Shown in pieces: positions 5,562 through 55,335 of a stretch of 55,335 bases of DNA (position 1 is the stretch's first letter; the number at the start of each line of letters is the position of its first letter). Under the pieces are notes generated by a model. The model was not told the DNA's origin. It worked only from the letters and a program-made list of their open reading frames with translations, and did not search any database. The position numbers and the translations under genes were made by a program. The stretch comes from Salisaeta longa DSM 21114 (lineage in GTDB: Bacteria; Bacteroidota; Rhodothermia; Rhodothermales; Salinibacteraceae). The DNA lies in NCBI RefSeq assembly GCF_000419585.1, contig NZ_ATTH01000003.1:1-55335 (forward strand). The letters are read 5' to 3'.

Positions 5562-6167
5562 TTATGCCTGCAGGTGGGCCGTTGTGATTCGCTCCTCAAT
5601 GCGATGCGCCGGGTAGTAGTGCTGGGCGCGCTCCCCGAAGAAGCTCAGCTTTCCACCGATGACCTTGCCAGGAAATGGAATGCCGACGGTCGCCTGCACG
5701 CGCTGCCGATCCATTTCATCGAGCAGCTCGGAGGCGCGTGCAAATGGATACAAGGCGCCCAGGTGGAGCAGCAACACTATATGCTCTGACGCACGACACG
5801 CATCCTTGTAACGCTCGACGATGCATTGCACCATCTCTACAGCGAGATTGTCGCGAAGCGTGTCCGCCTCTTGTGCGGTACGTTCCTCGGGCGCGCGCTT
5901 GTCGTAACGCTTGTCGTAAAACGATGCAGGGATCTTGAGCAGGGTTTTGACAACTTCGGTTTGGGCCATCACCCGATCGAGATAGATTGTCGTCACTTCG
6001 GTTGGCGGCATATCGCTATGGGCCCATCGGGCAAGGTCTTGGGCAGCCCTCTGCTCGCAGACAGGCGCCACCGGCACGATGACAAACGGATTGCGGATGC
6101 CGCGCCTGGTGCCGGTGGCGAAGTCACCGAGCCGATCCTTAAACTTTTGCAAAGGCGTTTTTGTCAT
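5562..6167 (-). CDS. brxB: BrxB-like protein (DUF1788)
   Basis: A 201-aa protein matching the DUF1788/BrxB pattern. A hydrophobic segment, VLLLHLGALYPFARASELL, is followed by a strand ending in IPFPGKVIGGKLSFFGE and then a tyrosine-rich tail, as in BrxB. BrxB is a conserved BREX component of unknown biochemical role and interacts with other BREX proteins. The ATG overlaps the brxC stop codon in an ATGA arrangement (6164-6167), so the two are translationally coupled. The length is normal for the family. Confidence 0.85.
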   Translation of the reverse strand: MTKTPLQKFKDRLGDFATGTRRGIRNPFVIVPVAPVCEQRAAQDLARWAHSDMPPTEVTTIYLDRVMAQTEVVKTLLKIPASFYDKRYDKRAPEERTAQEADTLRDNLAVEMVQCIVERYKDACRASEHIVLLLHLGALYPFARASELLDEMDRQRVQATVGIPFPGKVIGGKLSFFGERAQHYYPAHRIEERITTAHLQA

Positions 6168-9100
6168 TCGCTCGTGCTAATGATGACTGCGTGCGTGCGC
6201 TCTTCCACAGCAAAGCTACGTTTATGGGCTAGCTTACGAAGTGGATCTGTCAGTTCCTTTCGATCTGCTGGCCACATCCCAATGCTATCGACATCCGAAG
6301 GCGTTGCGCCCGCGGTTACCGCGTCGAGGGTGCGCAGCGCATGCAGGCACGCTTCAGCTTCTTCCACCGAGGGCACGCTTGGCCCCATGCCCTCCTGCAA
6401 ACGTCCTAAGGCGCGCCGGACCTTTGCCGTGTCTAGGCCATGTGCATCACGCATCATCGGTGCAAGGATTTCTTCTGTTCGGCGCATCGATTGCCGAAAG
6501 GCGCGCGGGCCATCGAGATACTGTCGCCGAAAGGTCTGCCCGATGTGGGCGAGGGCCGGGGCATTGGGGTTTACCAGCCAGGGATGATCGGCGGTATCGT
6601 CCATCAGTTGCTTTCTATGCTCTTCCTGCACCGTCTCGCGCCACCACGTTTTGAGTGTAGACAGCGCCTCGTTGTAACTAACAAGCGTATCGACGTATTC
6701 CGTCCATCCCTTCTTCGTCCACCACTGGATTGCAGCCGCCGCCTGTGCTTGCTCCTGCAGGTTGCTAAGGGCACGGTGCACAGGTTCGCCGATCGCATGT
6801 GCATACTGACACTGGAGGACTAAGAGGGCGTCGAGCTGAAGGATGTACGGCTCTCGGGTATCCCACTGGGCCGTGGCCTCCTTAATCTCCTGCTCTGCTT
6901 GTAGGGCATCAGAAACAATTTCCCCCCACTGTGGCTGCTGATGTCGCGTTTCGATACGCCATTCAGTCAGCGCTTTATACATCTCGTCGAGCCACTTCCC
7001 AAATTCTTCCAGCAGGTCGCAAACAGGATTCGTTGCTGCATTCTGAGCGACAATGCCAACCTGCTTACGCAGCGTATCGGTCTTTTGACGCTGCTCAACC
7101 AGAAAGTGCCGGAATTGAACGACCGCGTCGTTGGCCGTATCGTTGGGTCCAACAAACGGACCAAGCTGCTTCCGGAACGACTCGGCATGTCCGATTCGCA
7201 GTCGAATCTCGTGCCAGCGGTCGGGGTTGAGGAGTCGATCCGCGTTCAGCGGCTCTCCATCTTCACTGATGGACTGAAATGTGCCCTGTTGGCAAAGCCC
7301 CCAAAGAATAGCCACAAGGGCCGGCTCTACTCCGCTGTATGCCTCCTCTCTCTTGCGAAGTTCAGCCAGCGCCTGCGTTATGCTGACCGTCTCAATGCGC
7401 TTTAGCTTTCTTCCTATGATTCCTCGAACGGTCGTGACAATGTTGCCCCTGAGCTCATCCTGAGCATCACACACGACTTCCATCTTTTGCGCCCAACTTG
7501 GCAATTCCGCAGACTGGCGAACCCTCTTCAGTTCGCGTAGGCGCTCATGATCGACCCGGAGCATTTCTGGGTGAAACGATCTCGGATAAGACACTCGAAC
7601 GTACTGTTCGACGCCTTGGGCAACCGTGCGCGGCTCGTGAGAACGAACCTTCAGTTCTCCGTTCTTGATGCGGGCCGCAATTCGTGAAGGCAATCGTTGA
7701 CTCTCCTGCCGAAGCTGTTGCTCGATCGCTGGCGGTGCATAGTGCTCACGGCATGCGGCCGATAACGCCGCCCAGCGCTTCAGGTCGTTCCATAACGCAG
7801 TCCGGCCCTCGGCTCTTATCTTCCACAAGAACGCCTTTGCATGATCCGCCGATGAGCGTTCCTCATCTGAGATGAGCCCTTCGACATGAACCGTTACATT
7901 CAGCCCCTCTGCATCGGCAAACGCAACGTCAAGAGCATGACCATCAACATCAAATGTGTAGTTCACTGCATAGGTATCCTCACCGTCCATGTACGGGACC
8001 CGTGCAGGAAGATCGAGCTGCTTAAGGACTTGATGCCATAACGAGGTGTCTGTGCCTTCCGCAAACACATCCACCCGTGCAGACAACTCGCGCGCTACTT
8101 CCGCTTTTCCGAACTCAGCTTCTCGCTTTTCAGCCTCCTCAAGCACAACCTGCTCCTCCTGCGTGGTGAACCGGAGGTAGGAGTCATGCTCATCGTCGCT
8201 TCGGATGTATTTGCCAAGACGCGTGAGCGATTCTTCGACAGCATTCGTCCGGTTCATGAGCGTATCGCCATCGAGATTGTCCATCAATGCGACAGCAACG
8301 TTCTTCGTCTCATCTAACGGAATCATATCCGGGATGTACTGCAGCAGCAAGACTACTTTACATACCATCGCGTCGATGGGCTGCAAGTGGCCTTGTTTTA
8401 CCTGCTTCTCAACCTCATCAATTGTCTTGACTTCTTGCTTGATCGTGTCCTCAAGCTCCGGCCGAATGACCTCAAAGAAATCGACCAGCGATATTACGCG
8501 CTTAAGGCCAGCGTCTTTTCCCCATTCCTGCTCTTCCGAAGATGCAGCCCAGCGCTCTAATAGCCCTTTTACGATGGCGAGCACGGCGCGTGCAGTTCCA
8601 GAGAAGATAGACTTGGCCCGATCGGTGTTCTGTGCACGCAGGCGAGCTAAAATTTCAAGGAAGAGCGGCGGCTGATAGGGCAGAAGTGGAAGGTAGTCAC
8701 TGACCTCTTGGCTGTCCATGTGGTCGAGGCGAGGTTCGGTGTTTTGCTTTACGCCCCGGTAGACCAATGAATTTACGGGATCGAGCGCGGCCGTGCGCAA
8801 CGCTTCGTCAAACACCTTCTTTCCCGCATCGCGCTTCCGAAGCAGGCGATTTTGGACGATATCGCCCACATGACTCGACGGAAGACTGTATTGATGCGGA
8901 AACCGATCGTCCAAGATGCTAAAATCTACTTCCCGGGCTGTATAATCCGTCTGAACGCGAGAAGGATCCTCTTGCGCAGTACCAACGGTTAAAATGCGCC
9001 CTGCCCCTTCATCATCAATGGCTTCAGCAAGTGCATTCAGTTCCGTTAGGAGTCCGTATTGGGTTCCAATGAAGAGTGTGATCTCATCCAAGAGCAAGAA

Positions 9101-9919
9101 AAGACGCACCGGGCGGCCCGTTTCTTGCGCTATAGCCTCACGTGCCTGTTCTAACTGCTTGGCAACAGCCTCCGCGTCCAGATTGCGATCGATAACGTCA
9201 GTGAGCCCCTCACGTACACCTGTTTCTTGCGCAAACAGTTCGGGCATCACGCCGTCTGCAAGCACCGGATAGCGTTTTACACGATCCCAGGTGCTAGTGA
9301 CTCCAAGATCAACGTCCGCGCGCTTGAGTACTTGCGCAGCATCTTGCTCCAGCGTCTCACGGTTACGGCCGTTGCGCGACAGGTACCAACGCTCAAAAAA
9401 AGCAATCTTGAGGTGAGGCGAGTATCCTTGTTCTTCGTACAGGCGGCGCAGGATGACGCTTCCGAAGCCTCGATCCTCTCGCCCTTGCTCTTTGAGCAGA
9501 TTAATAAGTAGTGGACGTAGCACATAATTATCTAAACACCGCATCCACCGTGATTTTAGCCTATCAAGGTGGTCAGCGTCCTCACTGAGAGCTGCCCAGA
9601 CTCTTTCTCGCCCGACCTTACCAACCCAGGCAGAGTCTAGAAGGCATCCGGTGACTGCGAGCAGGTGACTTTTTCCACTTCCATAGTAGCCGTATAGCCA
9701 GTGGTTTGAGCCTTTTCGATCTCCCTGCGCCTCGCCCAACACCCTCGCGAGCATGTCGTCGAGATAGGATGCAGCAGATGCCGTGACGTAGAAACGCTTT
9801 AAGAGACCGATTTTGTCCTGCTCACTATCTCCCGCGGGTTCTCGGTCAACACGTATGGACTCCTCAAAGTCCTGCGAAAAGGGTTGAAACAGTGCTTCTG
9901 GTTCCACTACGTCAAACAA
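6164..9919 (-). CDS. brxC: BrxC, BREX P-loop ATPase
   Basis: A 1251-aa ATPase. Walker A is GYYGSGKSH at residues 77-85, and Walker B is FLLLDEITLFIG near residue 280. The N-terminal order (FxQDF-type strand, helical stretch, P-loop) and the length match BrxC of BREX. The remainder is helical with several coiled-coil-like charged stretches around residues 500-650 and 950-1150. BrxC is required for phage restriction in characterised BREX systems. The gene starts 72 bases after brxA and overlaps brxB by 4 bases. No frameshift is seen. Confidence 0.9.
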   Translation of the reverse strand: MFDVVEPEALFQPFSQDFEESIRVDREPAGDSEQDKIGLLKRFYVTASAASYLDDMLARVLGEAQGDRKGSNHWLYGYYGSGKSHLLAVTGCLLDSAWVGKVGRERVWAALSEDADHLDRLKSRWMRCLDNYVLRPLLINLLKEQGREDRGFGSVILRRLYEEQGYSPHLKIAFFERWYLSRNGRNRETLEQDAAQVLKRADVDLGVTSTWDRVKRYPVLADGVMPELFAQETGVREGLTDVIDRNLDAEAVAKQLEQAREAIAQETGRPVRLFLLLDEITLFIGTQYGLLTELNALAEAIDDEGAGRILTVGTAQEDPSRVQTDYTAREVDFSILDDRFPHQYSLPSSHVGDIVQNRLLRKRDAGKKVFDEALRTAALDPVNSLVYRGVKQNTEPRLDHMDSQEVSDYLPLLPYQPPLFLEILARLRAQNTDRAKSIFSGTARAVLAIVKGLLERWAASSEEQEWGKDAGLKRVISLVDFFEVIRPELEDTIKQEVKTIDEVEKQVKQGHLQPIDAMVCKVVLLLQYIPDMIPLDETKNVAVALMDNLDGDTLMNRTNAVEESLTRLGKYIRSDDEHDSYLRFTTQEEQVVLEEAEKREAEFGKAEVARELSARVDVFAEGTDTSLWHQVLKQLDLPARVPYMDGEDTYAVNYTFDVDGHALDVAFADAEGLNVTVHVEGLISDEERSSADHAKAFLWKIRAEGRTALWNDLKRWAALSAACREHYAPPAIEQQLRQESQRLPSRIAARIKNGELKVRSHEPRTVAQGVEQYVRVSYPRSFHPEMLRVDHERLRELKRVRQSAELPSWAQKMEVVCDAQDELRGNIVTTVRGIIGRKLKRIETVSITQALAELRKREEAYSGVEPALVAILWGLCQQGTFQSISEDGEPLNADRLLNPDRWHEIRLRIGHAESFRKQLGPFVGPNDTANDAVVQFRHFLVEQRQKTDTLRKQVGIVAQNAATNPVCDLLEEFGKWLDEMYKALTEWRIETRHQQPQWGEIVSDALQAEQEIKEATAQWDTREPYILQLDALLVLQCQYAHAIGEPVHRALSNLQEQAQAAAAIQWWTKKGWTEYVDTLVSYNEALSTLKTWWRETVQEEHRKQLMDDTADHPWLVNPNAPALAHIGQTFRRQYLDGPRAFRQSMRRTEEILAPMMRDAHGLDTAKVRRALGRLQEGMGPSVPSVEEAEACLHALRTLDAVTAGATPSDVDSIGMWPADRKELTDPLRKLAHKRSFAVEERTHAVIISTSE

Positions 9920-9991: not shown

Positions 9992-10801
9992 TTATTTGAC
10001 CTGGTTTTGGGTGCCAACAGGCGTTAACACAGCTTGACCACGCAGCTGTGACACGGACCACCGATCGCTGGCGCGCACACGATCGAGCAAAACGTTCTTG
10101 GCAGATTGGGGCTGAAACAGATACATCCATCCGATGGGGTGACTGGGCCATGCTCGGCCCTTTGTACGCCACGAATAGAGAGCCCCTAGGTGCAACGGTG
10201 GAAAGTCGATCGTAGGGGTGGTTCCTTTATCATCGTATGGCCTCTTGAGGACTCCGATGTCACGTAAAACGGATCGAAAGCCCTGTGCCCAACGATGGAG
10301 CGTCGAATCGGCATATTCAATTTCCGAGCCGTTGTCATATCGAAACGAAGATAGCACTTCCCGAACTATTTTGGGCGACACGTCCCATTCCGCTCGATCA
10401 ACGCCCTGTCGACGAAGAAGCTCATGAAGAACAAACCGAAACAGGTTGTCTTCTTGAATGAGATAGAAGTAGAAAAGCTGTGCTTTAGCCTGCTCCGTTG
10501 GGCACTCATCGACCAGTTCTGCAAGACGTGTAACTGGGGGCAGTACTGACGCCCCAGCAAGCAGGCGGCGCTTGATGATCCTGAAGATTTTTTGCGCACT
10601 CGATCGCGAGCCCCGCTCGTGGACTCGGTTGTCGTGCCAATGCCTCTTTACTTCGCTCCAGTTACGATACCTGGCATAGAGCGCTGCAACCTCTGCGGTT
10701 CTCTTCGTAAGAAGCCCTGCTTCCGTCAGCGACACGGAAACGTCGTCTACAGCGGGCGCAGCGCTACGCAGAAGGGTGTTTTGCTCGTCAGAACCAGCCA
10801 T
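9992..10801 (-). CDS. brxA: BrxA-like protein (DUF1819)
   Basis: A 269-aa protein with the DUF1819/BrxA layout. It has an early winged-helix-like region (SLTEAGLLTKRTAEVAALY), a basic helix with KIFRIIKRRL, the segment QLFYFYLIQEDNLFRFVLHE, and a C-terminal helical part. BrxA is a small DNA-binding component found at the head of several BREX operons. It is the first gene of the leftward operon here; the 150 bases upstream hold no gene and must contain the promoter, but no convincing box was recognised. No BrxR/WYL regulator is present next to it. Confidence 0.82.
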   Translation of the reverse strand: MAGSDEQNTLLRSAAPAVDDVSVSLTEAGLLTKRTAEVAALYARYRNWSEVKRHWHDNRVHERGSRSSAQKIFRIIKRRLLAGASVLPPVTRLAELVDECPTEQAKAQLFYFYLIQEDNLFRFVLHELLRRQGVDRAEWDVSPKIVREVLSSFRYDNGSEIEYADSTLHRWAQGFRSVLRDIGVLKRPYDDKGTTPTIDFPPLHLGALYSWRTKGRAWPSHPIGWMYLFQPQSAKNVLLDRVRASDRWSVSQLRGQAVLTPVGTQNQVK

Positions 10802-20981: not shown

Positions 20982-20983
20982 GC

Positions 20984-36877: not shown

Positions 36878-37108
36878 TTATTCACCCAAATACTCACGCA
36901 GCAACCCCTCCACAATATCGGTCATGCTCGCACCGTGGCGCGTAGCGTATACCTTCAACTCTGTGTGCAGGGACTCGGGAATTTCGACGTTTAGCCGCTT
37001 ACGGCGCTCGTCATCGCCGGCCACTTTCTTCTTTAGCTCCTCGATACTTGCTGAGTAACCTCCCGATTTTGCTTTAGCGGCGTTCGACAGCGTGTTCTTC
37101 TTCGCCAT
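36878..37108 (-). CDS. Ribbon-helix-helix DNA-binding protein, ParB-like partner of ParA
   Basis: A 76-aa protein from ATG at 37108, which overlaps the parA end by 35 bases; an upstream start at 37183 would add 25 unlikely residues. The second half is an RHH fold: RLNVEIPESLHTELKVYATR, then SMTDIVEGLLREYLGE. The N-terminus is basic and flexible, as in ParG/Omega-type partition proteins. It should bind the CTCAAATGATCATTTGAG sites that lie on both sides of the operon and both repress parA and form the partition complex. Two decayed copies of its 3' end lie downstream. Confidence 0.8.
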   Translation of the reverse strand: MAKKNTLSNAAKAKSGGYSASIEELKKKVAGDDERRKRLNVEIPESLHTELKVYATRHGASMTDIVEGLLREYLGE

Positions 37109-37745
37109 GGATGAACTCCAATAATTGATTCTTGATCGTGGTGATTTCGTTTGCAGCTTTACTTCCCTTCGCATTATGAACAACAGTCGCCCCTTCAGCT
37201 AGGGCCTCAACAAACGCTATTCGCTGATGCGTGCGTGCATCCAGAATTGGAATGCCGTAGGCTTCAACCGCCTCGTCTACCTCACTGGCGACGTTCGTCC
37301 CCACGATTGCACGGTTGATCACGAAACAAGCCTTCGGACGGCCGTCGGTTATTTCTTGGCGCGTCTTAATGAGTTCAACCATTTCTGAGACAGCCCAGAT
37401 ATCGGCTGCACTGGGTTGGATCGGAATGAGAACTACATCAGCTGCCTTGACGGCCGAGACAATCATCTCTTGTAGCTTGGCCGCTCCGTCGATCACAATG
37501 AAATCGAAGGCGTGCTCGATTTCTTTCGTATCTTTCTTCAGCGTCGGACGATCGATACCAACCACGCCCGGAAGATTGCTGTCTTCTTCTTGAACCCGGC
37601 GCCAATCTCGTGCCGTCCCTTGCGGGTCTGAGTCCGCAATGATAACGGAGTATCCATCGAGCTGCAGCGCACCAGCAAGATTGGTGCTTATGGTGCTCTT
37701 ACCGCTACCACCCTTGCTGTTTAGAACAGCGATGACTGTCGCCAT
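37074..37745 (-). CDS. parA: ParA-family partition ATPase
   Basis: A 223-aa ParA of the short type (no N-terminal HTH). The deviant Walker A is KGGSGKST near residue 11, preceded by AVLNS. A further motif ADSDPQGTARDW and the Walker B-like DFIVIDGAA are in place. It moves plasmid copies along the nucleoid before division. The downstream RHH gene overlaps it. Palindromes d and e (37747-37764 and 37887-37904) lie in the promoter region, one directly abutting the start codon, consistent with self-repression. Confidence 0.92.
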   Translation of the reverse strand: MATVIAVLNSKGGSGKSTISTNLAGALQLDGYSVIIADSDPQGTARDWRRVQEEDSNLPGVVGIDRPTLKKDTKEIEHAFDFIVIDGAAKLQEMIVSAVKAADVVLIPIQPSAADIWAVSEMVELIKTRQEITDGRPKACFVINRAIVGTNVASEVDEAVEAYGIPILDARTHQRIAFVEALAEGATVVHNAKGSKAANEITTIKNQLLEFIHGEEEHAVERR

Positions 37746-42862: not shown

Positions 42863-45800
42863 TCAGTCAGGGTGCGGCGCGTCGTCTGCAAAGCCTCTAA
42901 AAAGCCGCTCCAGGTTACTTCGCGTGATTAATCCGTCTCTTAGCTCCTGTGCTAAATCCGCTGTTACGTACTGCCACATCTCGGTTGGCGTGTTTGTCTC
43001 CTGCATGTCGATGTAGCCATGCTCATAGCAATAGTCTTCGAACTCGTCAGCCTTAGTGCTATGAAATCCTTTCGTGCGTTCGTCATTGCGCTCCCTAAGC
43101 TCACGTAGAAGTTTTTCAGCATCGCCCTTCAACGCTTTGGCGAGCTCGACGAGGTCTTCAAGGTAGTTACTCGATACCGCTCCACAATCCTTTAGGGCTT
43201 CCGGCCCAATCGCCTTGCCTCGGCCGACCCGCCAAGCGTCTTGCCAGCTTTCAACAGCTTTCGCGCGAGCCCGGATGCAGTCATCTTTGTCAGATGAAAG
43301 CCCCGTAGCAGCATTGCCCGTACGTTCATACTGGAATGCAAGCTGCCCCCAGGTTTCTGTCCCGCGACGTACGAGGTCGGCAAGGCCCTTTGGATCTTCT
43401 ATTAGATACCAGAGGTGAAGCTTCGATACCGGCTGACGTGGCGTCCACGCGGGAACTTTTAGTATGTCGCGGAGCGCTGTATGGCTCTTACCTTTCAGCT
43501 CAATAGGGGCAGTGCGAAGTGGCGGTACAGGAATTACTACATCATTCTCTCGCGAGTCCTCCGCAATGGGAGCGATGTCTCCAAGCGTCACAACTTTACA
43601 GGGCACGTTGGTCGTGCTGATATGCTCACGCCATTTCATTACTTCATCCTTCTGCGCCGTGAGGTAGAACACTTGACGACCCGACGCACACACAGCCTGT
43701 ATGGCATCGATGATCGCAGTAGCTTTCTCCTCGTCGCTGTTCGCGAGCGTTTCATCTAGCACGAGCGGGAGCCTACACGTCTCTTCTTGCGATTCGACAA
43801 ATGCCACCCGCACAGCTAAAAGAAGTTGGACTTTTGTGCCACTCGATAGCTTATCGAGATCGAATCCTCGGCTTTCGATTCGGTCACGTGCCCTAAACAC
43901 GCCTGCGTCGCGGTCAAGGATGAGCTCGTAGCGGTGATTCGTAATCGCAGCGAACAGCTCGCGCGCTCGGTCGAAAACCGGCGGCAATCCCTGGTCTCGT
44001 GTCTTCGCTTGTACGCACTTTAATAGGGCAGCACCGACGGCACGGTTATAGTCTTCATGCCTCTCGCGAGCTAGCGCGTCGACCGTTTCCCGGTACGCCG
44101 CCCGCGCTTCTTCCAGCGTCCCTTCTTCTTTCGCTTCTTCGATACCACGTTCAATCGTACCAATTTTTTCTCGCAGCTCTTCCTCACGACGTGCACAGGT
44201 GCGGGCGCTTTCAAGACGTTTCGCTAACTCAGACCGAACGTCCTCATCCATCCAAGCTTCGTGACCATCCAAGCGATGAAGCTGCCGGCGTTCGGTTTCC
44301 AGCTCCATTTGTGCTCTCGATTCGGCTTGTTGTGTCTCCTTGTAGTCCTCATGCCGATCGCACAGGTCACGCAGCGTACTCTCGTTGCCCACTTCCACGC
44401 CGGTGGACGCATAGATCTCGTTGATCGCGTCCTGCGCTTCTTTGATATCTTTCTCGGCACGCGTTTTCTCAGCCTCCGCACCATCGAGGTCTTGCTTGGC
44501 TTGCCGAAACACCTCGCGCTCCTGCTCCAGCGTTTTCAGCGCACCCGCCGCTTCTGCGGCCGAAGCCGCGTCTCCCAGCTTAAGCGCGTCAAGCGTCTCG
44601 TTTAGGTTGTTCAGTGCGTTTTGGGCAAGGCGACGGGCTTCATCACGCGCTGCCTCGGCGGCTTCCGCCTCTTCGCGCGCCGTCTGCCACTCCGATAGGC
44701 GTTCAACGAGCCAGGCCAGCGAACGCATACCGACGTTGAATCCCAGCCGTTCAGAAAGCCGTTCGCGTTCCCTTTTGAGCTTCTCTTCACGGTTAGCTAG
44801 CTTCTTATATTCGGGCGCTAACCGCTCCCATTCTTCGATTTTTGCTGTTTCTACGGCTGCCCCGCGCAATGCGTCGAGCAGACGGTCGGCCGCTTTCTCG
44901 ACCGCCGCGCGCGTCCACTGCGGCGTTGCCAACCCGGTCCGCTCAAAGTTGCGCTCGTAGGCAGATCGGTCGTCGCGCGCTGCTGCTTCTGCGTTCGATA
45001 CGCGAGCGCGCAGCACGTCTGCCCCGATGATGAGGAGGCCAAGCACGACGGCAATTGTGGCGATCCAGAGCGAGACTCCGTGAGCGATATAGGCGAAACT
45101 TCCCAGCAACACCACTCCTGCCGCACTCCCAATGACGACCCAGCGTACACCTCGGTTATCTTCCGCGGGGTTCGGCTGCTGCAACCACCGATGCAGCGCC
45201 CGGACTCCGTCCTGCAGCGTTTCTGCGGAGGGGGTTGGCGCGTCTGCCTCTAGCAGACGCTGAACTACCTTCAGTGCCTCCTGCGAGCCACGTAGGTCCT
45301 CCGCCTTCTCAACGTGCGTTTCAACCGTCTGGATCTGAGGCAGGCCTACAGCTGCGGCTTTCTCGCGATCCATGCCGGCATCGAGCCGATTCCAGGTTTC
45401 TTGCTCCCTCTTTTTCGCTTTGGCAACCTGCGTCTTGGCATCTTCAACACGTTTCTCAGCCTCTTTGAGCGCATCTTTCAACGCCCGGAGCGCTTCAACC
45501 TCGCTGGCCGACAGTCCTCCATCAGGCAGTATGCTTTCGCCGAGCGTCTTTTGTGCCTTATCGATGATGCGCTCGTGCTGCTCAACGACGTCCCTGGCTT
45601 TTTCGATGGTCGCCAGATGCGCATCAAGCTGCTCATCCTCATCACCGCGCAGATGCTCGTGGGCCTCCGAGAACGTTTCGAGGCGATCGACAGCTTCACG
45701 ATGCTTTTTCCGGGCGTCAGCAACGGTCATCGCCTGTTCGAGCGCACGGACCTGCAAGCCAGCCTCCTGCGCTTTTTTGTGCTGCCGACGCAGGTCGTTG

Positions 45801-46408
45801 AGCGAACGCTCCTTTTCACGCAGCTTTTCCTGCTTTGCTTTCGTTTTCCTAACTTGGCTGCGCGCGTCCTCAACCGCACGAGCGGTCTTGTTCTTATTTC
45901 GCGTCGGAACACCAAAGCCCAGGTTGCGCCCCGCCCCTTCGAGGTCGATGCCGCCTTGCGCTTCTTCTAAGATATGCTTGGCAAAGGCGTCGGCTCCGTC
46001 GGTGGCTGCAAGGAGATCTGGGAGGTACAGGTGGTACCGCGCGTGGTAGGAGGCTGGGGGGACGGAAGGAGGAGGCGCTGCCTGGGCGTCTTTCTGATAC
46101 TTAACTCGGTTGCCATCACGCTCAACGTGCCATGCTGAAGCCCCCATGCGGAACGTGCCAGAAAGAACGGGCCTATCGTCGCTTCCACGCTTCGCCCAGA
46201 TCATCATCTGGATCGCCCGAGCCAACGTTGTTTTTCCCGAAGCATTCGAGCCATAGATGATGTTTACGCCGTCTGTCAGATCCTCGACCTTTAGGTTGTG
46301 ATTGAGCCCGTAGAGGCGGTGCACCTGAATATGAGAAAAAGCCAACACCGGCGTTGAATCGTCGGTTGAAAACGGTGCAGCGTTAAGCCGTTCAGGGTGG
46401 GTAGACAT
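42863..46408 (-). CDS. YhaN/SbcC-like ATPase with coiled coils and a membrane hairpin
   Basis: An 1181-aa SMC/Rad50-like ATPase. Walker A is GSNASGKTT (53-61). Long coiled coils run through residues 190-410 and 500-780. Two adjacent hydrophobic segments at about 423-468 (VVIGSAAGVVLLGSFAYIA and LWIATIAVVLGLLIIGADV) could form a membrane hairpin in the middle, as in YhaN-type proteins. The signature LSSGTKVQLLLA is near residue 853 and Walker B LPLVLDETLANSD follows. A C-terminal extension of about 230 residues lies beyond the ATPase. It pairs with the SbcD-like gene 59 bases upstream, so together they may form a DNA-end nuclease. Last gene of the BREX operon. Confidence 0.8.
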   Translation of the reverse strand: MSTHPERLNAAPFSTDDSTPVLAFSHIQVHRLYGLNHNLKVEDLTDGVNIIYGSNASGKTTLARAIQMMIWAKRGSDDRPVLSGTFRMGASAWHVERDGNRVKYQKDAQAAPPPSVPPASYHARYHLYLPDLLAATDGADAFAKHILEEAQGGIDLEGAGRNLGFGVPTRNKNKTARAVEDARSQVRKTKAKQEKLREKERSLNDLRRQHKKAQEAGLQVRALEQAMTVADARKKHREAVDRLETFSEAHEHLRGDEDEQLDAHLATIEKARDVVEQHERIIDKAQKTLGESILPDGGLSASEVEALRALKDALKEAEKRVEDAKTQVAKAKKREQETWNRLDAGMDREKAAAVGLPQIQTVETHVEKAEDLRGSQEALKVVQRLLEADAPTPSAETLQDGVRALHRWLQQPNPAEDNRGVRWVVIGSAAGVVLLGSFAYIAHGVSLWIATIAVVLGLLIIGADVLRARVSNAEAAARDDRSAYERNFERTGLATPQWTRAAVEKAADRLLDALRGAAVETAKIEEWERLAPEYKKLANREEKLKRERERLSERLGFNVGMRSLAWLVERLSEWQTAREEAEAAEAARDEARRLAQNALNNLNETLDALKLGDAASAAEAAGALKTLEQEREVFRQAKQDLDGAEAEKTRAEKDIKEAQDAINEIYASTGVEVGNESTLRDLCDRHEDYKETQQAESRAQMELETERRQLHRLDGHEAWMDEDVRSELAKRLESARTCARREEELREKIGTIERGIEEAKEEGTLEEARAAYRETVDALARERHEDYNRAVGAALLKCVQAKTRDQGLPPVFDRARELFAAITNHRYELILDRDAGVFRARDRIESRGFDLDKLSSGTKVQLLLAVRVAFVESQEETCRLPLVLDETLANSDEEKATAIIDAIQAVCASGRQVFYLTAQKDEVMKWREHISTTNVPCKVVTLGDIAPIAEDSRENDVVIPVPPLRTAPIELKGKSHTALRDILKVPAWTPRQPVSKLHLWYLIEDPKGLADLVRRGTETWGQLAFQYERTGNAATGLSSDKDDCIRARAKAVESWQDAWRVGRGKAIGPEALKDCGAVSSNYLEDLVELAKALKGDAEKLLRELRERNDERTKGFHSTKADEFEDYCYEHGYIDMQETNTPTEMWQYVTADLAQELRDGLITRSNLERLFRGFADDAPHPD

Positions 46409-46467
46409 GAGAAGCAGACAGTCTGTGCAAACGAAAGTAAGCGGGAGGTGCGAAGACGGGCTCTTTG

Positions 46468-47757
46468 CTACCGATCTGCCGGCGTGTGTATGGCATCAAG
46501 GAGCCGGTACCCCTGACGGATAGCCCATTGGCGTATCTCACCTGACGACGGGGCGTTTCCTCGCTCAGGGTCGCGCTGAAGCGGGTCATAGCGTGTTGAC
46601 CGATAGAGCGGCTGGACGTTTTTCTTTGCTTGCTGCATCACGTTTCGAACAGCATCGGTGTCGCGCCCTGCTTCAAGATCGAGGAGCAGTTCCGCTAGCA
46701 CACCTACCGGATCGTTGCCACGGGCAAGTTCACCGAGGTCGTAGTCGGGGCGCGTTTGAATCTCGTAGTCGTAAATCGATCCGTGGACCTCGCCCGCTGA
46801 CGGTGCAAGATCAGCAACGACGTCTTTCGCCTGTCGCTCAATTTCCGTATGGAGCGCCGTGCGGCCATCGTACACGAGCCGATAGACAACATGCCGTACG
46901 TTGGGCCATGTACGGGCAGCATGCGCCATGCCGTCCTGGATCGTTTCAATAACGGCGTGCTCGACGTCGTCTGCGGTATCGAATCCCGACACGTCAACCG
47001 AGGCCCTGTCGTAGCGAAGCGTTGCAAGCGGAATGCGTTCTTCATTTACATCCGATGGCCCGACGTTCACCAGCCACGCCCCATGCGTACCGGTTTCACC
47101 GGGATCGAGGGGTTGTAGCGATCCGGTGTAGAGCTGAAGCTGCCCACCTTGGCGATGCTCATTAGGGGCATGAATATGGCCAAGCAACCACGCATCGACA
47201 GGAGCACGGGCCAGTGCCTCACGACGTACGGGGGCGTACCGCCCTTCCGCTTGTCCCGCGTCACAGTGCAACACGCCAACGGTTGGCATTGACGTGGCCT
47301 CCAAATGGCCGTCTTCGAGAGGCGACCGCGGCACATACCGGCTTGGGAACGACCATCCGATGAAGCGAACGCGGGCACCGTCGCTGTTTTCGAGGATCAC
47401 GGCCTCCCAATTTCCGCCCTGCCCCAGCAGATGAAAGCGATCGTCGTTGATGCTGCGCACCAAGCGGGGAAAAGTATCGTAGTCGTGGTTGCCGGCGACA
47501 GCTACCACGTTGATGCCTGCCTCAAGGAGGCGACGGATACCACGCTCTAGAGGCCCAAACGCCTCGTACATTTTGTTTTCGTTGTCGACGATGTCACCCG
47601 TCAACACAAAGGCATCAACGCTCCGGTTGAGCGCCTCTTCGATGCATTGTGCCCATACGTGCTGCACCGACAGCTCGTTGGGGCGGCGCGGCGCACGGGC
47701 CGGGCGACGCCCAAGATGAACATCACCGGTGCAGATGATCCGAAAGCGAGACGGCAT
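46468..47757 (-). CDS. SbcD/Mre11-like metallophosphoesterase
   Basis: A 429-aa calcineurin-like phosphoesterase with the full motif set: GDVHLG (11-16), GDIVD (54-58), GNHD (89-92), H164 in GVLHCDAG and GHIH (193-196). The C-terminal 200 residues form the capping and partner-binding region. By analogy with SbcCD and Mre11-Rad50 it should be a nuclease controlled by the ATPase encoded next. The gene starts 27 bases after the helicase gene. Confidence 0.85.
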   Translation of the reverse strand: MPSRFRIICTGDVHLGRRPARAPRRPNELSVQHVWAQCIEEALNRSVDAFVLTGDIVDNENKMYEAFGPLERGIRRLLEAGINVVAVAGNHDYDTFPRLVRSINDDRFHLLGQGGNWEAVILENSDGARVRFIGWSFPSRYVPRSPLEDGHLEATSMPTVGVLHCDAGQAEGRYAPVRREALARAPVDAWLLGHIHAPNEHRQGGQLQLYTGSLQPLDPGETGTHGAWLVNVGPSDVNEERIPLATLRYDRASVDVSGFDTADDVEHAVIETIQDGMAHAARTWPNVRHVVYRLVYDGRTALHTEIERQAKDVVADLAPSAGEVHGSIYDYEIQTRPDYDLGELARGNDPVGVLAELLLDLEAGRDTDAVRNVMQQAKKNVQPLYRSTRYDPLQRDPERGNAPSSGEIRQWAIRQGYRLLDAIHTPADR

Positions 47758-47784
47758 AGAGAACGGTTGTTGGCATTGAGGACG

Positions 47785-50682
47785 TTAAGCAGGCAGCGCG
47801 TAACACAGATTCACGAGGTCTGGAGCCAGAGAAACCACGCGCGATTTTGCGCGCACGTTTTCTTTTCGCTTTTCGATCCGTGCCTTTAGGTTTTCCAGCC
47901 GCTTCTCTTGTCCACGAATGGCAATCTCCATATCTTTGCCCGTTTCTTGTTCGCGGCGGTAGCGCTTAATAAATGCTTGAAGCCGCTTTCGCTCCGACGC
48001 TGCGTAGTCGTCGAGCCGCTGCAGCTCTTGTTCTGTCTTCACCTCACGCTCTTCGGCCAGTTCTTTTCGGATGCGCCGAACCGTGCGACTCAGATACGCC
48101 TCGGCTGCATCTTTGAGCGCCTCGCTACGCGCCTGTAGCGTCTTCAGCAGCGACGCATCGGGCGAAACGGAGAGCGACTCACCATCGATAATACGCTCGC
48201 CCATGTTGTGCTGTGCCTGGCCATTCAATTCGTCCACAAAGACGGGGAAAAGCTCCTCACGGAGAACTTCTCCTGTGCCATCCTCGAATGCAATCCGATA
48301 ATTGAAGACGATCCCCGGATCCTGAACAAAGGGCAAAACCTTGGCTCCATTTCTTCCGCCAAAGACATCCTCGTCATCAAACACATGATCGACGAGCGCG
48401 CCTACAAGCGGATGATCGGGCGATAGGTACGTTACCTTGCCCTCGAACCGCATGGCTAGATCGCGATCGAACGTGATCATCTGTTCTTCGAAGGTCTCGT
48501 CGACCGAAGCGGCCAAAACATCCGGCACGGTTACACGGAACTGACGGGTGGAGACCTGCTCAACCGTTCCTCCCAATGCTCGAAGACCTGCAATCACAAA
48601 GCCTTGGACATCCTGCGATGAGCCGAATACGTCTTCAGAATCGTCCACGACCTGCTGGATCCGGCGCCGACTCTCGGCATCGAATGTCGAGCAATCAATC
48701 AGGCTTCGCTCGTACCAGTCCATCAGGGTCTGCTGTCGCTTCTCGATTTCGCGCTCCAGCTCCTCCTGGGTGACGGATGGAGGCTCATTGTCACGAATGG
48801 AGCGCATGATCAATTTCTCGATGTTGAGATCCTCGATCATTCCCAAGACATCCGCTGTTGCCCCTACGCGCGCCCGAATGGCCTCCACTTTCTCCTGCAG
48901 GAGCTCAAAGATTTCGGCTTCACGGGTGCCATCAAACTGGAAGTTCCATACCTTTACCTCACGCTCCTGCCCGTACCGATGGATGCGCCCAATGCGCTGC
49001 TCAAGACGGTTGGGGTTCCAGGGCAGCTCATAGTTGATCATGATATGGCAGCTCTTTTGAAGGTCGATCCCTTCACTAGCTGCGTCGGTGGCAAAGAGCA
49101 GTCGGCTCTTGCCATAGTTGAATTCGTCTTCGATGCTTGCCCGCTCGTCTTTCCCCACATCGCCGTGAATCAGCAAGATCTCGTCGAACCACGGCTCATC
49201 CTCAAAAAGCGTGAGCAAGTATTCCAACGTATCTCGGTACTCGGTAAAGAGGAGAACCTTTTCGTTGGGTTCTCTCTCAAGAAGGGTTTGGATGTACTGC
49301 TGAACCTTTCGGGCTTTGCTGTCGACTGCAATTTCGTTGGCTCGTTCGAGAAGCGACCGAAGCGCTTCAAGTTCGTCTCGCAGCTCTTCATCGGCCGTTA
49401 CCGTCACGCGCTCCAGCTCTTTCTCGGCCTCAATTTGCTCATCTTCCTCCAGGTCCTCTCCTTCGAGATAGCTTCGTGCATCGCGCGATAGATCGAGATC
49501 ATCGTGCGCAAGCAATCCCTGTAGCCGACGCTCAAGGGTCGAACGGATGGCCCCGATGCTACTTACGAGCCGCTTCTGCATCAGCGCCATGGCAAAGCCA
49601 ACCACCGGGGCATTAAGCACCTCCGACCGGTTGTAAACGGTGCGTACGTACTCGGTAACCGCTTCGTAGAAGTTTTTCTCTGCAGTGGTCATGGAAACGC
49701 CGACCGTCTGCACATCGCGGTTCGGAAAAATCCGCTCGCCATCGTCATCGAAAATCGTTTCCTTTCCGCGGCGAATCATCACCTCGTCGACGATTTCACG
49801 GGTGAGCTCTTGATCTTGTGCAACCTTGAGCGGGTCGACATACGAGATAAGCGATCGGAAGCTTTGCTCCTTGCCCGTATGTGGCGTTGCACTGAGCAAT
49901 AGCAGGGCGTCGGACTGGCTGGTGATCTGCTCTACGCGCCGCGCTGTTTTGCTCGGCGTTTTTCCTTTCCGACTGGCTTTGTGGGCCTCGTCGACGATAA
50001 CAACATCCCAAAAAGCTTCCTGCAGCGGTGCCTCAAATCGTCCTTGCCTAATGAAGGCCTGGCTCGTAATGAGTCGTTGCTGGTCCTGATTCCAAACGTT
50101 GGCTTCTTCCCCAAGACGACGCTGCTCCCCTTCTACCCAGTACCGGTCTGCGACGCTGAGCTGAATGTCAAAGAAGCGCTTCATCTCGCGCACCCACTTT
50201 TTCTGCAGGTGGGCCGGTACTACAAACAAGACGCGATCTGCACGGCGCCGGGCATCGAGCTCTTTTAGGATGAGCCCAGCCTCAATCGTCTTTCCCAACC
50301 CCACATCGTCGGCGATGAGCGCGCGCTGCCGTAGTCGCTGCATGACTTGGTTCACGCAGGCAAGCTGGTACGGCTCTAAGCGTACCAGCGAATTTGAAAT
50401 GCTTAAAAGCTGGCCGCGCTGATGCGCCAGGCGAAAGCGCATTGCCTGGGTTCGAAGGTCAAACCGATCAGCCGATAGGTCGTCCAGATCGTCCGTGTCG
50501 GCCGCCGATCCGTCGCTCCCCCGGTGATCAATGTTCACATCCTCAACGCAAACGGACTTGACGCCTTCCCCTTCTACGTACACACGTAGATAGGGCAGCT
50601 CTCCCATTTGGGTGATTGTGATCACCTCGGCTGGCTGGCCATCGAGAAGAATTTTGTCGCCTGGATTTAGCGTATCAATCAT
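47785..50682 (-). CDS. SNF2/RapA-type helicase (BrxHII- or DrmD-like)
   Basis: A 965-aa SF2 helicase. Walker A is DDVGLGKT (125-132), motif II DEAH (231-234), motif III LLLSATPHTGK. The second RecA domain has LLFTEYRDTLEYLL, LLFATDAASEGIDLQ and QRIGRIHRYGQ. The C-terminal 350 residues include a basic coiled coil at the very end. SNF2 helicases of this kind occur in BREX types 3 and 5 and as DrmD in DISARM. It follows pglZ by 59 bases, so a BREX role (DNA translocation or remodelling) is most likely. Confidence 0.85.
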   Translation of the reverse strand: MIDTLNPGDKILLDGQPAEVITITQMGELPYLRVYVEGEGVKSVCVEDVNIDHRGSDGSAADTDDLDDLSADRFDLRTQAMRFRLAHQRGQLLSISNSLVRLEPYQLACVNQVMQRLRQRALIADDVGLGKTIEAGLILKELDARRRADRVLFVVPAHLQKKWVREMKRFFDIQLSVADRYWVEGEQRRLGEEANVWNQDQQRLITSQAFIRQGRFEAPLQEAFWDVVIVDEAHKASRKGKTPSKTARRVEQITSQSDALLLLSATPHTGKEQSFRSLISYVDPLKVAQDQELTREIVDEVMIRRGKETIFDDDGERIFPNRDVQTVGVSMTTAEKNFYEAVTEYVRTVYNRSEVLNAPVVGFAMALMQKRLVSSIGAIRSTLERRLQGLLAHDDLDLSRDARSYLEGEDLEEDEQIEAEKELERVTVTADEELRDELEALRSLLERANEIAVDSKARKVQQYIQTLLEREPNEKVLLFTEYRDTLEYLLTLFEDEPWFDEILLIHGDVGKDERASIEDEFNYGKSRLLFATDAASEGIDLQKSCHIMINYELPWNPNRLEQRIGRIHRYGQEREVKVWNFQFDGTREAEIFELLQEKVEAIRARVGATADVLGMIEDLNIEKLIMRSIRDNEPPSVTQEELEREIEKRQQTLMDWYERSLIDCSTFDAESRRRIQQVVDDSEDVFGSSQDVQGFVIAGLRALGGTVEQVSTRQFRVTVPDVLAASVDETFEEQMITFDRDLAMRFEGKVTYLSPDHPLVGALVDHVFDDEDVFGGRNGAKVLPFVQDPGIVFNYRIAFEDGTGEVLREELFPVFVDELNGQAQHNMGERIIDGESLSVSPDASLLKTLQARSEALKDAAEAYLSRTVRRIRKELAEEREVKTEQELQRLDDYAASERKRLQAFIKRYRREQETGKDMEIAIRGQEKRLENLKARIEKRKENVRAKSRVVSLAPDLVNLCYALPA

Positions 50683-50741: not shown

Positions 50742-52919
50742 CTACTCGGCCTCGATGGTCAAAAAGCTCAAGATGCACTCTTGCGGAAGGGCGCCGCCGT
50801 GGTAAAAACGCGTGTCGGCGAGCCCCTGCTTTTTGAATCGTTGCAAAGGATCTACGAGGATGCGGACCGGCGAGGCCAGGTACGACAGATCGGGGATGCG
50901 TTCGCGCGTTAAGCGTACTCCTGGCCCCTTGTCGGGTGCGTCGGCGGCAGCGACGCGGCGGCGCTTGATGTCACCCTCCGGCGGCGCGAGCGCTTCGAAG
51001 GTGGTTCGTTCAGGAAGGAGCACAAAGCCGTGATCGGTGACGACGTAGGCACGGCTCCAGTTGCCACTGCGCATCTTTTGAAAGATCAGACGGACGAGTT
51101 CGTCAATGCGCGCGGCCAGTTTCTTTTCGATTTGGTCCAGGTCGTTTTCTCCAATGTCGTCCAGCTCCGTGTCCATGTACGCCACACGCGTGCCGGACCA
51201 TGCCGACGCGTCGTGCGGAGCCACGGTCCATCCTTCGTTCCTGAGCAGCTCGTGACGGCGCGTGGTATTGAGGGCGCGCCCGCTTCGATGCGCGCGCAGC
51301 TTTCCACCGTTCATCTTTACCTCGTAGGCGCGAACGCGCCCGGGCAGTACGGCCGCCATGCCAAACGCCGTCTCCGACGGCAGCACCCCGAGGCGCGTCG
51401 ACTCGCGAACCGTGAGGTGTACGCCTGCAGCATCGTCGGAGCGTTCCTGCAAGCGGTCGGCCAGGGCACGGGCCAAATCGAGGCGAAGGGCGTCGATATA
51501 AAACAAGACCGCTTCCTTGCCCGCGCTGAGCGCCTCGCTGTGATCGGACCAGAACGTGACGCTGGGGCGCAAGGTGTCGTCGAGGAGCGTGCCGCGTTGA
51601 AGGGCGGCCTCCATTTTACCGGCCAGCGTTTGCAGGTATTCGAGATACCGATCGCCCACCAGGGCGTCGCGGCAGGTGGCCAGTGCCTCGCGGGCTGGAT
51701 GGTCGGTGGACAAGTCCTCTTCGGGCGTGCCGGAGACGATGATGCGACGAACGGCTGCATCGATGTGCCAGCTTCCTTCTTCCCGATCGGCGTACAAGGC
51801 GTGAACCGGCGCATCGCGGTCGGCCCACGTGTCGTAGCGGTGCGCAAGCTCGGCGAGTGAAGCGGCCTGGCGCCACGCGCGAATCCAGGGCGGGCGCGCT
51901 TTGCCCACGTCTTCGCCGTCTCGCTTGGTGGCGGCACGGAGCGCTTCGGTGCGTTCGCGGGCTCGCTCCTGACACTGTGCAAATGCTCCTGCATCGAAAT
52001 CCTGAAGCCACACCTTCCACAGATACGCTTCCAGGGCACCGTCTACCGGGCATGCGCTCGCGACCCAGGGATCGTCGAGTTGCTTGATGGCATCCGGCCA
52101 GTACGCTTTTTGATACGTGGACAAGACCTCCGTTTGCTGATCGGTTTCAAGCACCGATTTGAGGCGGCGGTGGGCGTAGCCAAGATCGCTCGTTGCAATG
52201 AATCGGGGAAACGCATCGCGGGGTACGCCTTCGTGGTGAAGCCACCCCGCCACGGCCCAGCGGCGCACAGCCTTGACGATGGCTGCGGGCTGACTGCTCG
52301 GGCGCAGGTTGGGCACGTGTTCATCGTTTAGGAGTGCACGGACTTTCTCAACGACATCCGGGTCATCGGGCAGGCGGCCCCATCCGTCACGCAAGATGTA
52401 CTCAACCGGCAGGCTGTCGTCGCCGGTAAGAAGGCTGGCTTGGAGCCGCTGCAATGTGGGCCGATCGCGGCGGCTGAGCTGATCCTTGAGAATGTTGGCG
52501 ATGCTTTGGCTGACGGCACCTTCGCCTTCCCATGAACGGAGCTGCCATGGGTAAATACCATACAGATCGGCAGCAAGGTCTTCGATACCCTTCTTGATCA
52601 CCTTGCCCATGTGCGCTACGTCGCGAAACCAGTCGCGGCCGTTTTGTGCTTCGGGCACGTACCAGACGACGCGCTCGGGCTCGTCTTCCGGCGTAGCGCC
52701 TTGCTCGGCCACCCACGCCCGAAAGGCCAGCGGATGCTCGCGCGGGATAAACGGCACCCCCAACGCCTCACACGCGCGTTCCACCACGCTTCGAAGGTAT
52801 CCGCCAGCATCCCACCAGAGTACACGACGCCGCGGGCCGGGGGCATCGTTGAAGGCGGCCTGGAGCAGCGCCTCCGCTTCTTCCTGAAGGGACTGTTGAG
52901 CGTGTTTGGGTGCAGGCAT
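50742..52919 (-). CDS. pglZ: PglZ, BREX alkaline-phosphatase-fold protein
   Basis: A 725-aa PglZ. The core carries EAVLFYIDALRLDLARAL near residue 470 (metal-binding Asp), a middle region with TELDDIGE, and VVTDHGF near residue 625, where the D-H pair is the usual second metal site. The N-terminal 450 residues are helical. PglZ is the defining protein of BREX/Pgl systems and a predicted phosphodiesterase. It is 59 bases downstream of pglX. Confidence 0.9.
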   Translation of the reverse strand: MPAPKHAQQSLQEEAEALLQAAFNDAPGPRRRVLWWDAGGYLRSVVERACEALGVPFIPREHPLAFRAWVAEQGATPEDEPERVVWYVPEAQNGRDWFRDVAHMGKVIKKGIEDLAADLYGIYPWQLRSWEGEGAVSQSIANILKDQLSRRDRPTLQRLQASLLTGDDSLPVEYILRDGWGRLPDDPDVVEKVRALLNDEHVPNLRPSSQPAAIVKAVRRWAVAGWLHHEGVPRDAFPRFIATSDLGYAHRRLKSVLETDQQTEVLSTYQKAYWPDAIKQLDDPWVASACPVDGALEAYLWKVWLQDFDAGAFAQCQERARERTEALRAATKRDGEDVGKARPPWIRAWRQAASLAELAHRYDTWADRDAPVHALYADREEGSWHIDAAVRRIIVSGTPEEDLSTDHPAREALATCRDALVGDRYLEYLQTLAGKMEAALQRGTLLDDTLRPSVTFWSDHSEALSAGKEAVLFYIDALRLDLARALADRLQERSDDAAGVHLTVRESTRLGVLPSETAFGMAAVLPGRVRAYEVKMNGGKLRAHRSGRALNTTRRHELLRNEGWTVAPHDASAWSGTRVAYMDTELDDIGENDLDQIEKKLAARIDELVRLIFQKMRSGNWSRAYVVTDHGFVLLPERTTFEALAPPEGDIKRRRVAAADAPDKGPGVRLTRERIPDLSYLASPVRILVDPLQRFKKQGLADTRFYHGGALPQECILSFLTIEAE

Positions 52920-52978: not shown

Positions 52979-55335
52979 TCAGATCACCTTCTTGTCGACG
53001 AGCTCGGGGACGATCTTCTTCTCGGCCCACGGGGTGATGTTGATGGCTACGCCGTGCTTTTTGACGGGGCGGTACCCGGCGGTCGTGACCTCCTCCAGCG
53101 CGCGTTTTCGCCACTCACTGTCCATGTGTTTTTTCATGCGCTGGCAGGCGACGTTGATGGCTTCGCCCAGCTCGATGTCTTCATCGGTTTCGCGGGCGAG
53201 GGCGGCGACGAGCTTTTGGCGGCGCGTTACGCCGTTCGTCTGGCCCTGGTCGATCTTGGCGGCGAGGTCTTTCCCCTTCGAGAAGTAGTAGTTCAAGAAG
53301 AAGATGCCGTTGCTGCTGTAGTGCGTGGAGCCGGTGAGTTTGTTGAAGTACGGCAGCAGGTCGTACAGGTGCGCCTCGACGGGCTCGTCCGCCGGGCGGG
53401 CGAACTGCTCGCAGGCGGCTTCCAGGTCCTCCAGCGCGTCGATCCACTCGTCGCGGTTGTCGTTGACCGACGCCATAAACTTGGGACTGAAGTGGTCTTT
53501 GAACCACGACGTGGGTGCTTCCTCGTGGAGGGCGTCGAGCGTTTGGAGGCGCTCTTCGAGGCGCTCGCGAAAGCGGCGAACTTTGGGCGCGAGTTCGCGG
53601 GCGTCGTCTTGCACGGCCTCGGCCCACGGGCGGGGCTGGGTCTGGCTGAGTTCGGCGATCTTCGTTTCCAGCGCGCTGATTTGCCGGAGGGCGGCATCTG
53701 TGCGCTCAGCCTCTTGGCGAGACGCGCGGCGCGTGGCGGCGTCGACGCTGTCGTCGTCCGCGGTGCGGCGAGCGGCGGTTTGGCGCTCGCGGAGGGCGGC
53801 TTTGCGCGTCTCCAGGTAGCGCGTGCTGAGACGGTCGAAGACGTCGGCGCCGAGCTGGTGGTAGTCGATGAGGCAGGCGAAGCCGGTGATGCCCGCATCG
53901 CCGTCGCCGAGGCGCTCGGTGCTGAGCTGCCAGAGGATGGGCGTGTTCTCGAATTCGCTGCAGTGGAAGGCGAAGAGTTTGTGTTCGAGCCAGTGGCGCA
54001 GGTTGGGATAGGGCTCGTCGGTCGGGGCGCGGTTGCCGAGCACCTGGTCGACTTCCTGCAGGCGGTCGGTGGCGTATTCGCCCCAGATGGCTTCGAACTT
54101 GCGGGTCATCTTCACCACAAGGTCGGCCTCCTCGTCGTCGGAGACGGCACGGAGGAGCACGATGCCGTCGTCATCTTCCTCCAATATCTCGAAGACGAGG
54201 TGGAGGAGCATGCGTTCTACAAGTTTATCAACATCAAATGGATTGTCGCTTTCTCCCTCATCCTCCTGGCCATCGTCCTCTTCATTCCAGAAGGGGCGCA
54301 GTCCGGCCTCTCCGTACCGAATGCGTATTTCCTGTTTGATGAGGTGCTGCTGGCCCTCGTCGAGATCTAACAGATCAAACACCCGGTGATTGATGCCGTC
54401 TGCCCGCGTTTGGATGTTCGTCTTGGTTTCCTCCCAAAAGCTCTTCGCTGCCTGTACCATCTCAAATAGCGACGCGGAAGGAGCCAGCTCTGCTGGCTTG
54501 GACAGGCGTGCATCCTCTAACAGGGCACGATGCGCATGATGGCGATGGCTTGGTATACTGTCAGCATGACCCAGCAATTTAAGTAAAACAGGACCGCTGT
54601 AATAGGGCGAGTTGAACTCGAACTGCCGAAGGGAGGCCAACAGCGCGATAATTTCCTGCGACGCATTCTTCAACGAAGAATCTGCAAGGCGATCAAACCA
54701 TGGAAGTTTTGACACCTCGCCAACCTCCCATATACGCTCGGTTTTCTGCGCAAGCATCAGATACGTGCCAATTAAGCTGTTGGCATATGCCAGTAGCTCC
54801 ATCACATCGCGATCTGGGATTATTACTGAGCCGATATGACCGAAGATGGAGCCATCCTGCAACAAACCGAACCGCCGTCCATGCTTCGATTTGACGGTGC
54901 TGTACGTGATGGCTGGTTTGAAGTAATGTTGTTCGCTTGGTGTCCCATTACCACCACTGAACCTCTTTATTTCATCACCGTCCCTGCCCCATCGCAAAAC
55001 TCGCTGCACTCGTGGTAAGACCCAAGAATCCTCGCCACCTTTGGAAAAGGGTGTCCAACCTTCGTTGCTATGCTCCCAGAAAAGATGTACGTATCGGTCG
55101 TCCTTACCAGTAGCTATTCCCTGCCGGACTACGCCAACAGATTTTCGGTCGTCACCTTCCCGTGCCTCAATGCAGAACTCAGTCTGATACAGTTTTCGAA
55201 GATCCAGCGGCACCCAATACGACAGCGACGCACCTGGAATCATTTCAAATTCGCTCAGAGGACGCACATACCTCCGCTGAATATCGTTCTCGAAGGCATC
55301 CACGTAAGCTGCATGGAGAAAGGAGCGCTCCTTCG
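52979..55335 (-). CDS. pglX: PglX, C-terminal part (enters from right edge)
   Basis: The minus strand is open from the right edge to the stop at 52979. In the edge frame it reads KERSFLHAAYVDAFEND, so the GTG at 55303 is internal rather than a start. FEMIPGASLSYWVP, just after the edge, is the segment that follows the NPPY domain in PglX. The rest is the target-recognition and C-terminal helical part (about 785 codons), including coiled-coil segments near 53550-53850. Joined to the part at 1-1989 it would make a PglX of about 1450 residues, a long member. The joining frame is off by one base (see findings). Confidence 0.88.
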   Translation of the reverse strand, partial: KERSFLHAAYVDAFENDIQRRYVRPLSEFEMIPGASLSYWVPLDLRKLYQTEFCIEAREGDDRKSVGVVRQGIATGKDDRYVHLFWEHSNEGWTPFSKGGEDSWVLPRVQRVLRWGRDGDEIKRFSGGNGTPSEQHYFKPAITYSTVKSKHGRRFGLLQDGSIFGHIGSVIIPDRDVMELLAYANSLIGTYLMLAQKTERIWEVGEVSKLPWFDRLADSSLKNASQEIIALLASLRQFEFNSPYYSGPVLLKLLGHADSIPSHRHHAHRALLEDARLSKPAELAPSASLFEMVQAAKSFWEETKTNIQTRADGINHRVFDLLDLDEGQQHLIKQEIRIRYGEAGLRPFWNEEDDGQEDEGESDNPFDVDKLVERMLLHLVFEILEEDDDGIVLLRAVSDDEEADLVVKMTRKFEAIWGEYATDRLQEVDQVLGNRAPTDEPYPNLRHWLEHKLFAFHCSEFENTPILWQLSTERLGDGDAGITGFACLIDYHQLGADVFDRLSTRYLETRKAALRERQTAARRTADDDSVDAATRRASRQEAERTDAALRQISALETKIAELSQTQPRPWAEAVQDDARELAPKVRRFRERLEERLQTLDALHEEAPTSWFKDHFSPKFMASVNDNRDEWIDALEDLEAACEQFARPADEPVEAHLYDLLPYFNKLTGSTHYSSNGIFFLNYYFSKGKDLAAKIDQGQTNGVTRRQKLVAALARETDEDIELGEAINVACQRMKKHMDSEWRKRALEEVTTAGYRPVKKHGVAINITPWAEKKIVPELVDKKVI

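Follow-up and report, generated by a model that had tools for sequence, protein, structure and literature searches.

What do two genes that resemble a DNA-end nuclease contribute directly behind a complete BREX operon, and do they belong to it? The window, i.e. the whole stretch of DNA that was analysed, is the entire circular contig NZ_ATTH01000003.1 (55,335 bp), contig 3 within the 3.4-Mb genome of Salisaeta longa DSM 21114, a salt-loving bacterium of the family Salinibacteraceae (class Rhodothermia). Circularity was deduced from pglX, which is split over the two contig ends and whose homologues align straight through the join and, since the circle also has a ParA partition gene, it is most likely a plasmid. 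A tyrosine recombinase (32584-33681, plus strand) and the ParA partition ATPase itself (37074-37745, minus strand) fit a mobile plasmid. The minus strand has the gene order brxA-brxC-brxB-brxC2-pglX-pglZ-brxHII, followed by an SbcD-like gene and an SMC/Rad50-like gene. Only on a circular molecule are these genes one uninterrupted operon, with pglX spanning the join (from about 1989 to 1, then from 55335 to 52979). The features are as follows.

9992..10801, minus strand: brxA, the first BREX-5 gene (PADLOC BrxA, 1.1e-69; Pfam BrxA, 43.1 bits, cut-off 23)
6164..9919, minus strand: brxC, the first DUF499-type ATPase (PADLOC BrxC, 1.3e-268)
5562..6167, minus strand: brxB (PADLOC BrxB, 3.1e-60; Pfam BrxB)
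2150..5503, minus strand: second brxC (PADLOC BrxC, 6.9e-234)
1..1989, minus strand: N-terminal part of pglX (67% identity to the PglX of Salinivenus lutea up to the join; start codon approximate, read from the translation)
52979..55335, minus strand: C-terminal part of pglX (BREX_5_MTaseX, 838 bits for this half of PglX alone, the cut-off of 900 being for the whole protein; 54% identity to S. lutea PglX)
50742..52919, minus strand: pglZ of BREX type 5 (NF033444 BREX_PglZ_5, 684.7 bits, cut-off 250)
47785..50682, minus strand: brxHII, an SNF2-type helicase and the last BREX gene (PADLOC BrxHII, 1409 bits)
46468..47757, minus strand: SbcD/Mre11-like metallophosphoesterase, 429 aa (Pfam Metallophos, 2.1e-11; profile search retrieving SbcD and Mre11 structures in the PDB, 8.5e-14)
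42863..46408, minus strand: SMC/Rad50-like ATPase, 1181 aa (Rad50 profile matches, 1.1e-7; model compared with Rad50 heads, hydropathy)

On its gene content the operon is firmly assigned to BREX type 5: a type-5 PglZ, brxA, brxB, two brxC genes, a type-5 PglX and BrxHII are all present, and the scores of PglZ and the helicase bear out the type-5-like set described in an earlier, sequence-only reading of this DNA. The whole of pglX aligns over the circular join and contains an NPPY motif. A small frame slip in the gene falls at a short repeat, of a few bases, shared by the ends of the contig; given this position at the join, a true frameshift of the phase-variation kind is not favoured. Like the BREX type 5 systems of haloarchaea, the operon has all its genes collinear, and its PglZ is 35-41% identical to haloarchaeal PglZ over 95-97% of the length; unlike them, it is bacterial, lies on a small plasmid and is followed by the SbcD-SMC pair.

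The sequence-only reading had also placed an Mre11/Rad50-type pair right behind the operon, and this holds exactly, in both coordinates and strand. The spacers are, as it had given them, 27 bases between brxHII and sbcD (47758-47784) and 59 bases between sbcD and smc (46409-46467), and a scan of both for consensus promoters scored near the level of shuffled sequence. Co-transcription of the pair with the BREX genes, which had been put forward as almost certain, is held here as likely from the spacing.

The phosphoesterase has the metal-binding motifs DxH, GDxxD, GNHD, H and GHxH, and the residues concerned (D12, H14, D55, N90, H91, H164, H194 and H196) are invariant across nine family members. 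With the ATPase it would form a putative DNA-end nuclease, an activity predicted from sequence. Against the curated SbcD model TIGR00619 it reached 38 bits, under the cut-off of 77.65, whereas the canonical SbcD encoded on the host's chromosome scored 138.9 bits; since the chromosome has this canonical SbcD, the pair on the plasmid is a distinct paralogue. Neither the SbcD-like protein nor PglZ had a relative among the viral contigs searched.

The ATPase has a Rad50-type head, with invariant ABC Walker and signature residues, split by a long coiled coil, and its model matched Rad50 heads with a Z of about 20 (20.2). In place of the zinc hook of Rad50, a membrane hairpin is predicted at the tip of the coil. 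Two hydrophobic segments (about residues 424-442 and 445-463) have Kyte-Doolittle values of 2.07 and 2.53, AlphaFold2 places helices at 418-441 and 448-490 with low confidence at the tip itself, a strong hydrophobic segment was found there in 88 of the 94 family members tested, and a zinc-hook CxxC in none of 101. The hairpin noticed earlier therefore stands as a prediction, a transmembrane hairpin at about residues 424-463 that may put the protein at the membrane. The ATPase ends in a helical domain of ~250 residues (about 930-1181; mean model pLDDT 90), shared by about 95% of 67 members, for which neither Foldseek nor VIA-align gave a confident PDB match (best Z 3.8) and to which no Pfam family corresponded. 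We leave this predicted domain unnamed, and the missing structural match need not mean a new fold. Among the curated families searched, none spans the whole of either the SbcD-like or the SMC-like protein.

Comparison with known systems places the pair near several of them. It has in common with SbcCD and Mre11-Rad50 the phosphoesterase motifs, the Rad50-type head, the long coiled coil and the two adjacent genes, and differs from them in scoring below the SbcD cut-off, in lacking the zinc hook and in having the hairpin and the additional C-terminal domain. The proteobacterial YhaO-YhaN proteins (annotated as 'DNA repair exonuclease' and 'YhaN family protein') follow the same two-gene logic, with phosphoesterases at 26-29% identity; the two proteobacterial YhaN-type proteins compared, which did not include B. 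subtilis YhaN, have no hairpin and terminate after the ATPase, and the best match to an annotated proteobacterial YhaN was not full-length but lay in the C-lobe only (30% over 178 residues). Lamassu LmuB is likewise a Rad50-like coiled-coil ATPase, and the PADLOC LmuB profile gave a partial match of 61.5 bits. In contrast to LmuABC, however, the partner here is a phosphoesterase, and with no PADLOC match to LmuA or LmuC among the neighbouring genes scanned, membership of Lamassu was rejected. A literature search for YhaN/SbcCD-like defence systems found nothing relevant.

A profile of the SbcD-like protein led to 80 further loci that were kept, in haloarchaea and many bacterial phyla. An SMC-like gene lies near the SbcD-like gene at 77 of these, the other three running into a contig end, and the most frequent arrangement of the two genes is a 4-base overlap. 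BREX-5 genes were found within 10 kb at none of the 80, and the immediate neighbours of the pair (76 scanned) belong mostly to housekeeping families, with few defence genes. Eight haloarchaeal plasmids have a full-length pair, one of them together with BREX-5 at a distance of >40 kb, and on none of the 20 haloarchaeal BREX-5 plasmids does the pair adjoin BREX-5. On this distribution we rejected a core role for the pair in BREX-5; the second bacterial system, described below, has a fragment only. The sequences point rather to an independent, widespread two-gene family that is usually found apart from BREX and here looks like an added accessory. The suggestion that the pair marks a variant of BREX was accordingly not upheld, the haloarchaeal plasmids, the housekeeping neighbours and eight relatives with the pair away from BREX all speaking against it; DNA degradation at the membrane, proposed along with it, stays conjectural. 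In Halogeometricum limi (L046/L162) the strand opposite to the pair has a distant BrxC-like gene at 5 kb and a PglZ-like gene at ~15 kb, not of type 5. In a Balneolaceae genome (L038/L129) the pair comes directly after a probable GajB-like UvrD helicase and an OLD-like ATPase, a Gabija-like neighbourhood.

Other type-5 loci had been proposed as the place to look for the same pair. It does not stand beside the haloarchaeal ones, and what was found is a truncated sbcD-like gene in Salinivenus lutea, the one other genome with a type-5 PglZ among 196 of class Rhodothermia (one per species). The S. lutea BREX-5 genes have the same order as the Salisaeta longa operon, and behind brxHII come first a candidate defence gene (a PADLOC PDC-S11 match that looks nuclease-like by eye) and then the truncated gene, which covers about residues 1-108 and adjoins a tmRNA gene (positions 7904-9004 and 7027-7392 of locus L018). 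Flanking DNA is 97% identical between S. iranica and S. lutea, and this identity breaks off precisely at the 3' end of the tmRNA, so that the fragment belongs, like BREX, to the divergent part. An intact pair is present elsewhere in S. lutea, to which the fragment is only 56% identical. Two further associations may be relevant, each resting on few independent cases: in Salinivenus and in genomes G129 and G146 the pair has defence-type SNF2 helicases of different classes as same-strand neighbours, and a gene for an AddAB-like DNA-end nuclease is present on 9 of the 20 haloarchaeal plasmids with a type-5 PglZ, always within 17 kb of pglZ (counted from listed coordinates, kinship ignored). The AddAB-like genes vary in arrangement, some following the helicase and others preceding brxA; nuclease/helicase gene pairs of this kind near BREX-5 were located, for example, at 21110-27410 (L135), 17340-24520 (L164) and 23276-29960 (L166).

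We tentatively favour, at a little short of an even chance, the view that the pair is an accessory DNA-end nuclease appended to a complete BREX-5 operon and serving as an auxiliary or back-up to BREX. The two genes would encode a two-subunit DNA-end processing complex of the Mre11-Rad50 type, from a separate and widespread family, most likely expressed together with BREX. BREX would mark self DNA, unmarked DNA would be stalled or nicked through PglX, BrxC, PglZ and BrxHII, and the pair would bind and cut what this leaves (ends, hairpins or stalled forks), perhaps beside the membrane. Such an auxiliary effector fits the tight spacing as well as the fragment in S. lutea, and it fits the extra nucleases published beside BREX (PMC12839542). 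According to the main text of that 2026 survey, PglZ is cited as a DNA-nicking nuclease and auxiliary nucleases next to BREX are a general pattern, including REase, HNH, HKD, OLD-TOPRIM, HEPN, PIN and Schlafen classes (PMC12839542); the earlier premise that BREX has no nuclease is, on that account, dated. The likeness to those effectors lies in an extra nuclease module directly beside the BREX core genes, and the main text does not contain SbcC, Mre11, calcineurin or metallophosph (PMC12839542). The invariant motifs, the Rad50-type head, the SNF2 neighbours, the AddAB-like genes and the status of the pair as a separate paralogue also count for an auxiliary role, as does the shared strand; its absence beside haloarchaeal BREX-5 and from the vicinity of BREX-5 at the 80 loci, its housekeeping neighbours, the single copies away from BREX in eight relatives and the position of the plasmid copy in the tree count against.

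A close rival, which we consider a less probable but serious reading, is that this is a repair pair, chromosomal in relatives, which was relocated to the plasmid, came to stand behind BREX by chance and serves host or plasmid DNA repair with no role in BREX. Each of the nine pair-bearing Salinibacteraceae genomes has one ATPase copy, a count restricted to genomes in which the pair had been found beforehand, and it lies on a BREX contig only in Salisaeta longa, the pair standing away from BREX in the other eight. In the SbcD tree the plasmid copy is sister to Salinivenus copies that stand away from BREX (SH-aLRT 99). The housekeeping neighbours in most phyla would suit a repair function, as would the presence of the pair in most sampled members of the Rhodothermia genus g23, as if vertically inherited. 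The pair is patchy even among the Salinibacteraceae, however, with a strong match in 9 of the 20 Salinibacteraceae genomes searched and none in 11, some of them incomplete; the truncated gene in the S. lutea BREX-5 insert is a second instance of the association, the host chromosome already has its canonical SbcD, and chance relocation sits poorly with the tight same-strand spacing behind brxHII. Joint acquisition of the pair and BREX-5 from haloarchaea, considered separately, was not supported, the tree placing the copy with Salinivenus and apart from the haloarchaeal clade.

Two other explanations give the pair a closer partner. It might work with SNF2 helicases of the BrxHII/DrmD/BrxHI class, here with BrxHII, as a three-protein translocase-nuclease that can stand alone. 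We judge this improbable: adjoining same-strand helicases of different classes are found in Salinivenus, G129, G146 and the Salisaeta longa plasmid, but one is lacking in the vicinity of most pair loci. Of 60 sampled genomes, five encode a full-length homologue of the Salinivenus helicase, and all five have the pair, yet the two are on different contigs there, and because the five genomes are close relatives this co-occurrence is not independent. Hardly credible, to our minds, is a new subtype of BREX with the pair as its obligatory effector, degrading phage DNA at the membrane on entry. The position in the operon and the hydrophobic coil tip common to the family would agree with it, but other BREX-5 loci do not have the pair beside them, it is common where there is no BREX, and the second bacterial BREX-5, that of S. 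lutea, has only a fragment behind its helicase.

If the pair is indeed an auxiliary to BREX, it is interesting to speculate on its wider meaning. The final step by which BREX stops phage DNA is still under debate, and a DNA-end nuclease in the same likely transcript, taken with the AddAB-like genes near haloarchaeal BREX-5, yields the testable idea that BREX-5 makes or exposes DNA ends which dedicated nucleases finish off. A bolder version, unlikely as it stands, is that the BREX-5 of Salinibacteraceae recruited a membrane-anchored Mre11-Rad50-like effector that destroys BREX-stalled or nicked DNA at the membrane, and that haloarchaeal BREX-5 recruited AddAB-like enzymes for the same job. Apart from BREX, the pair represents a widespread family of Mre11-Rad50 type whose ATPase has a predicted membrane hairpin and ends in an unnamed domain, and if it proves to be a repair pair only, the locus is still a clear case of a DNA-repair module behind a plasmid defence operon.

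Several other genes on the plasmid deserve mention. A 1812-aa NACHT/AAA-type ATPase with TPR repeats (23046-28484, plus strand; PADLOC STAND_TPR, 73 bits) is followed by a 406-aa macro-domain protein (28569-29789, plus strand), and the two genes are possibly a STAND-type defence pair. On the minus strand, 33731-35827 encodes a 698-aa protein with a CoiA-type nuclease domain (49.8 bits, cut-off 20.3), and 38295-39713 a dynamin-like GTPase that is weakly similar to LeoA (48 bits).
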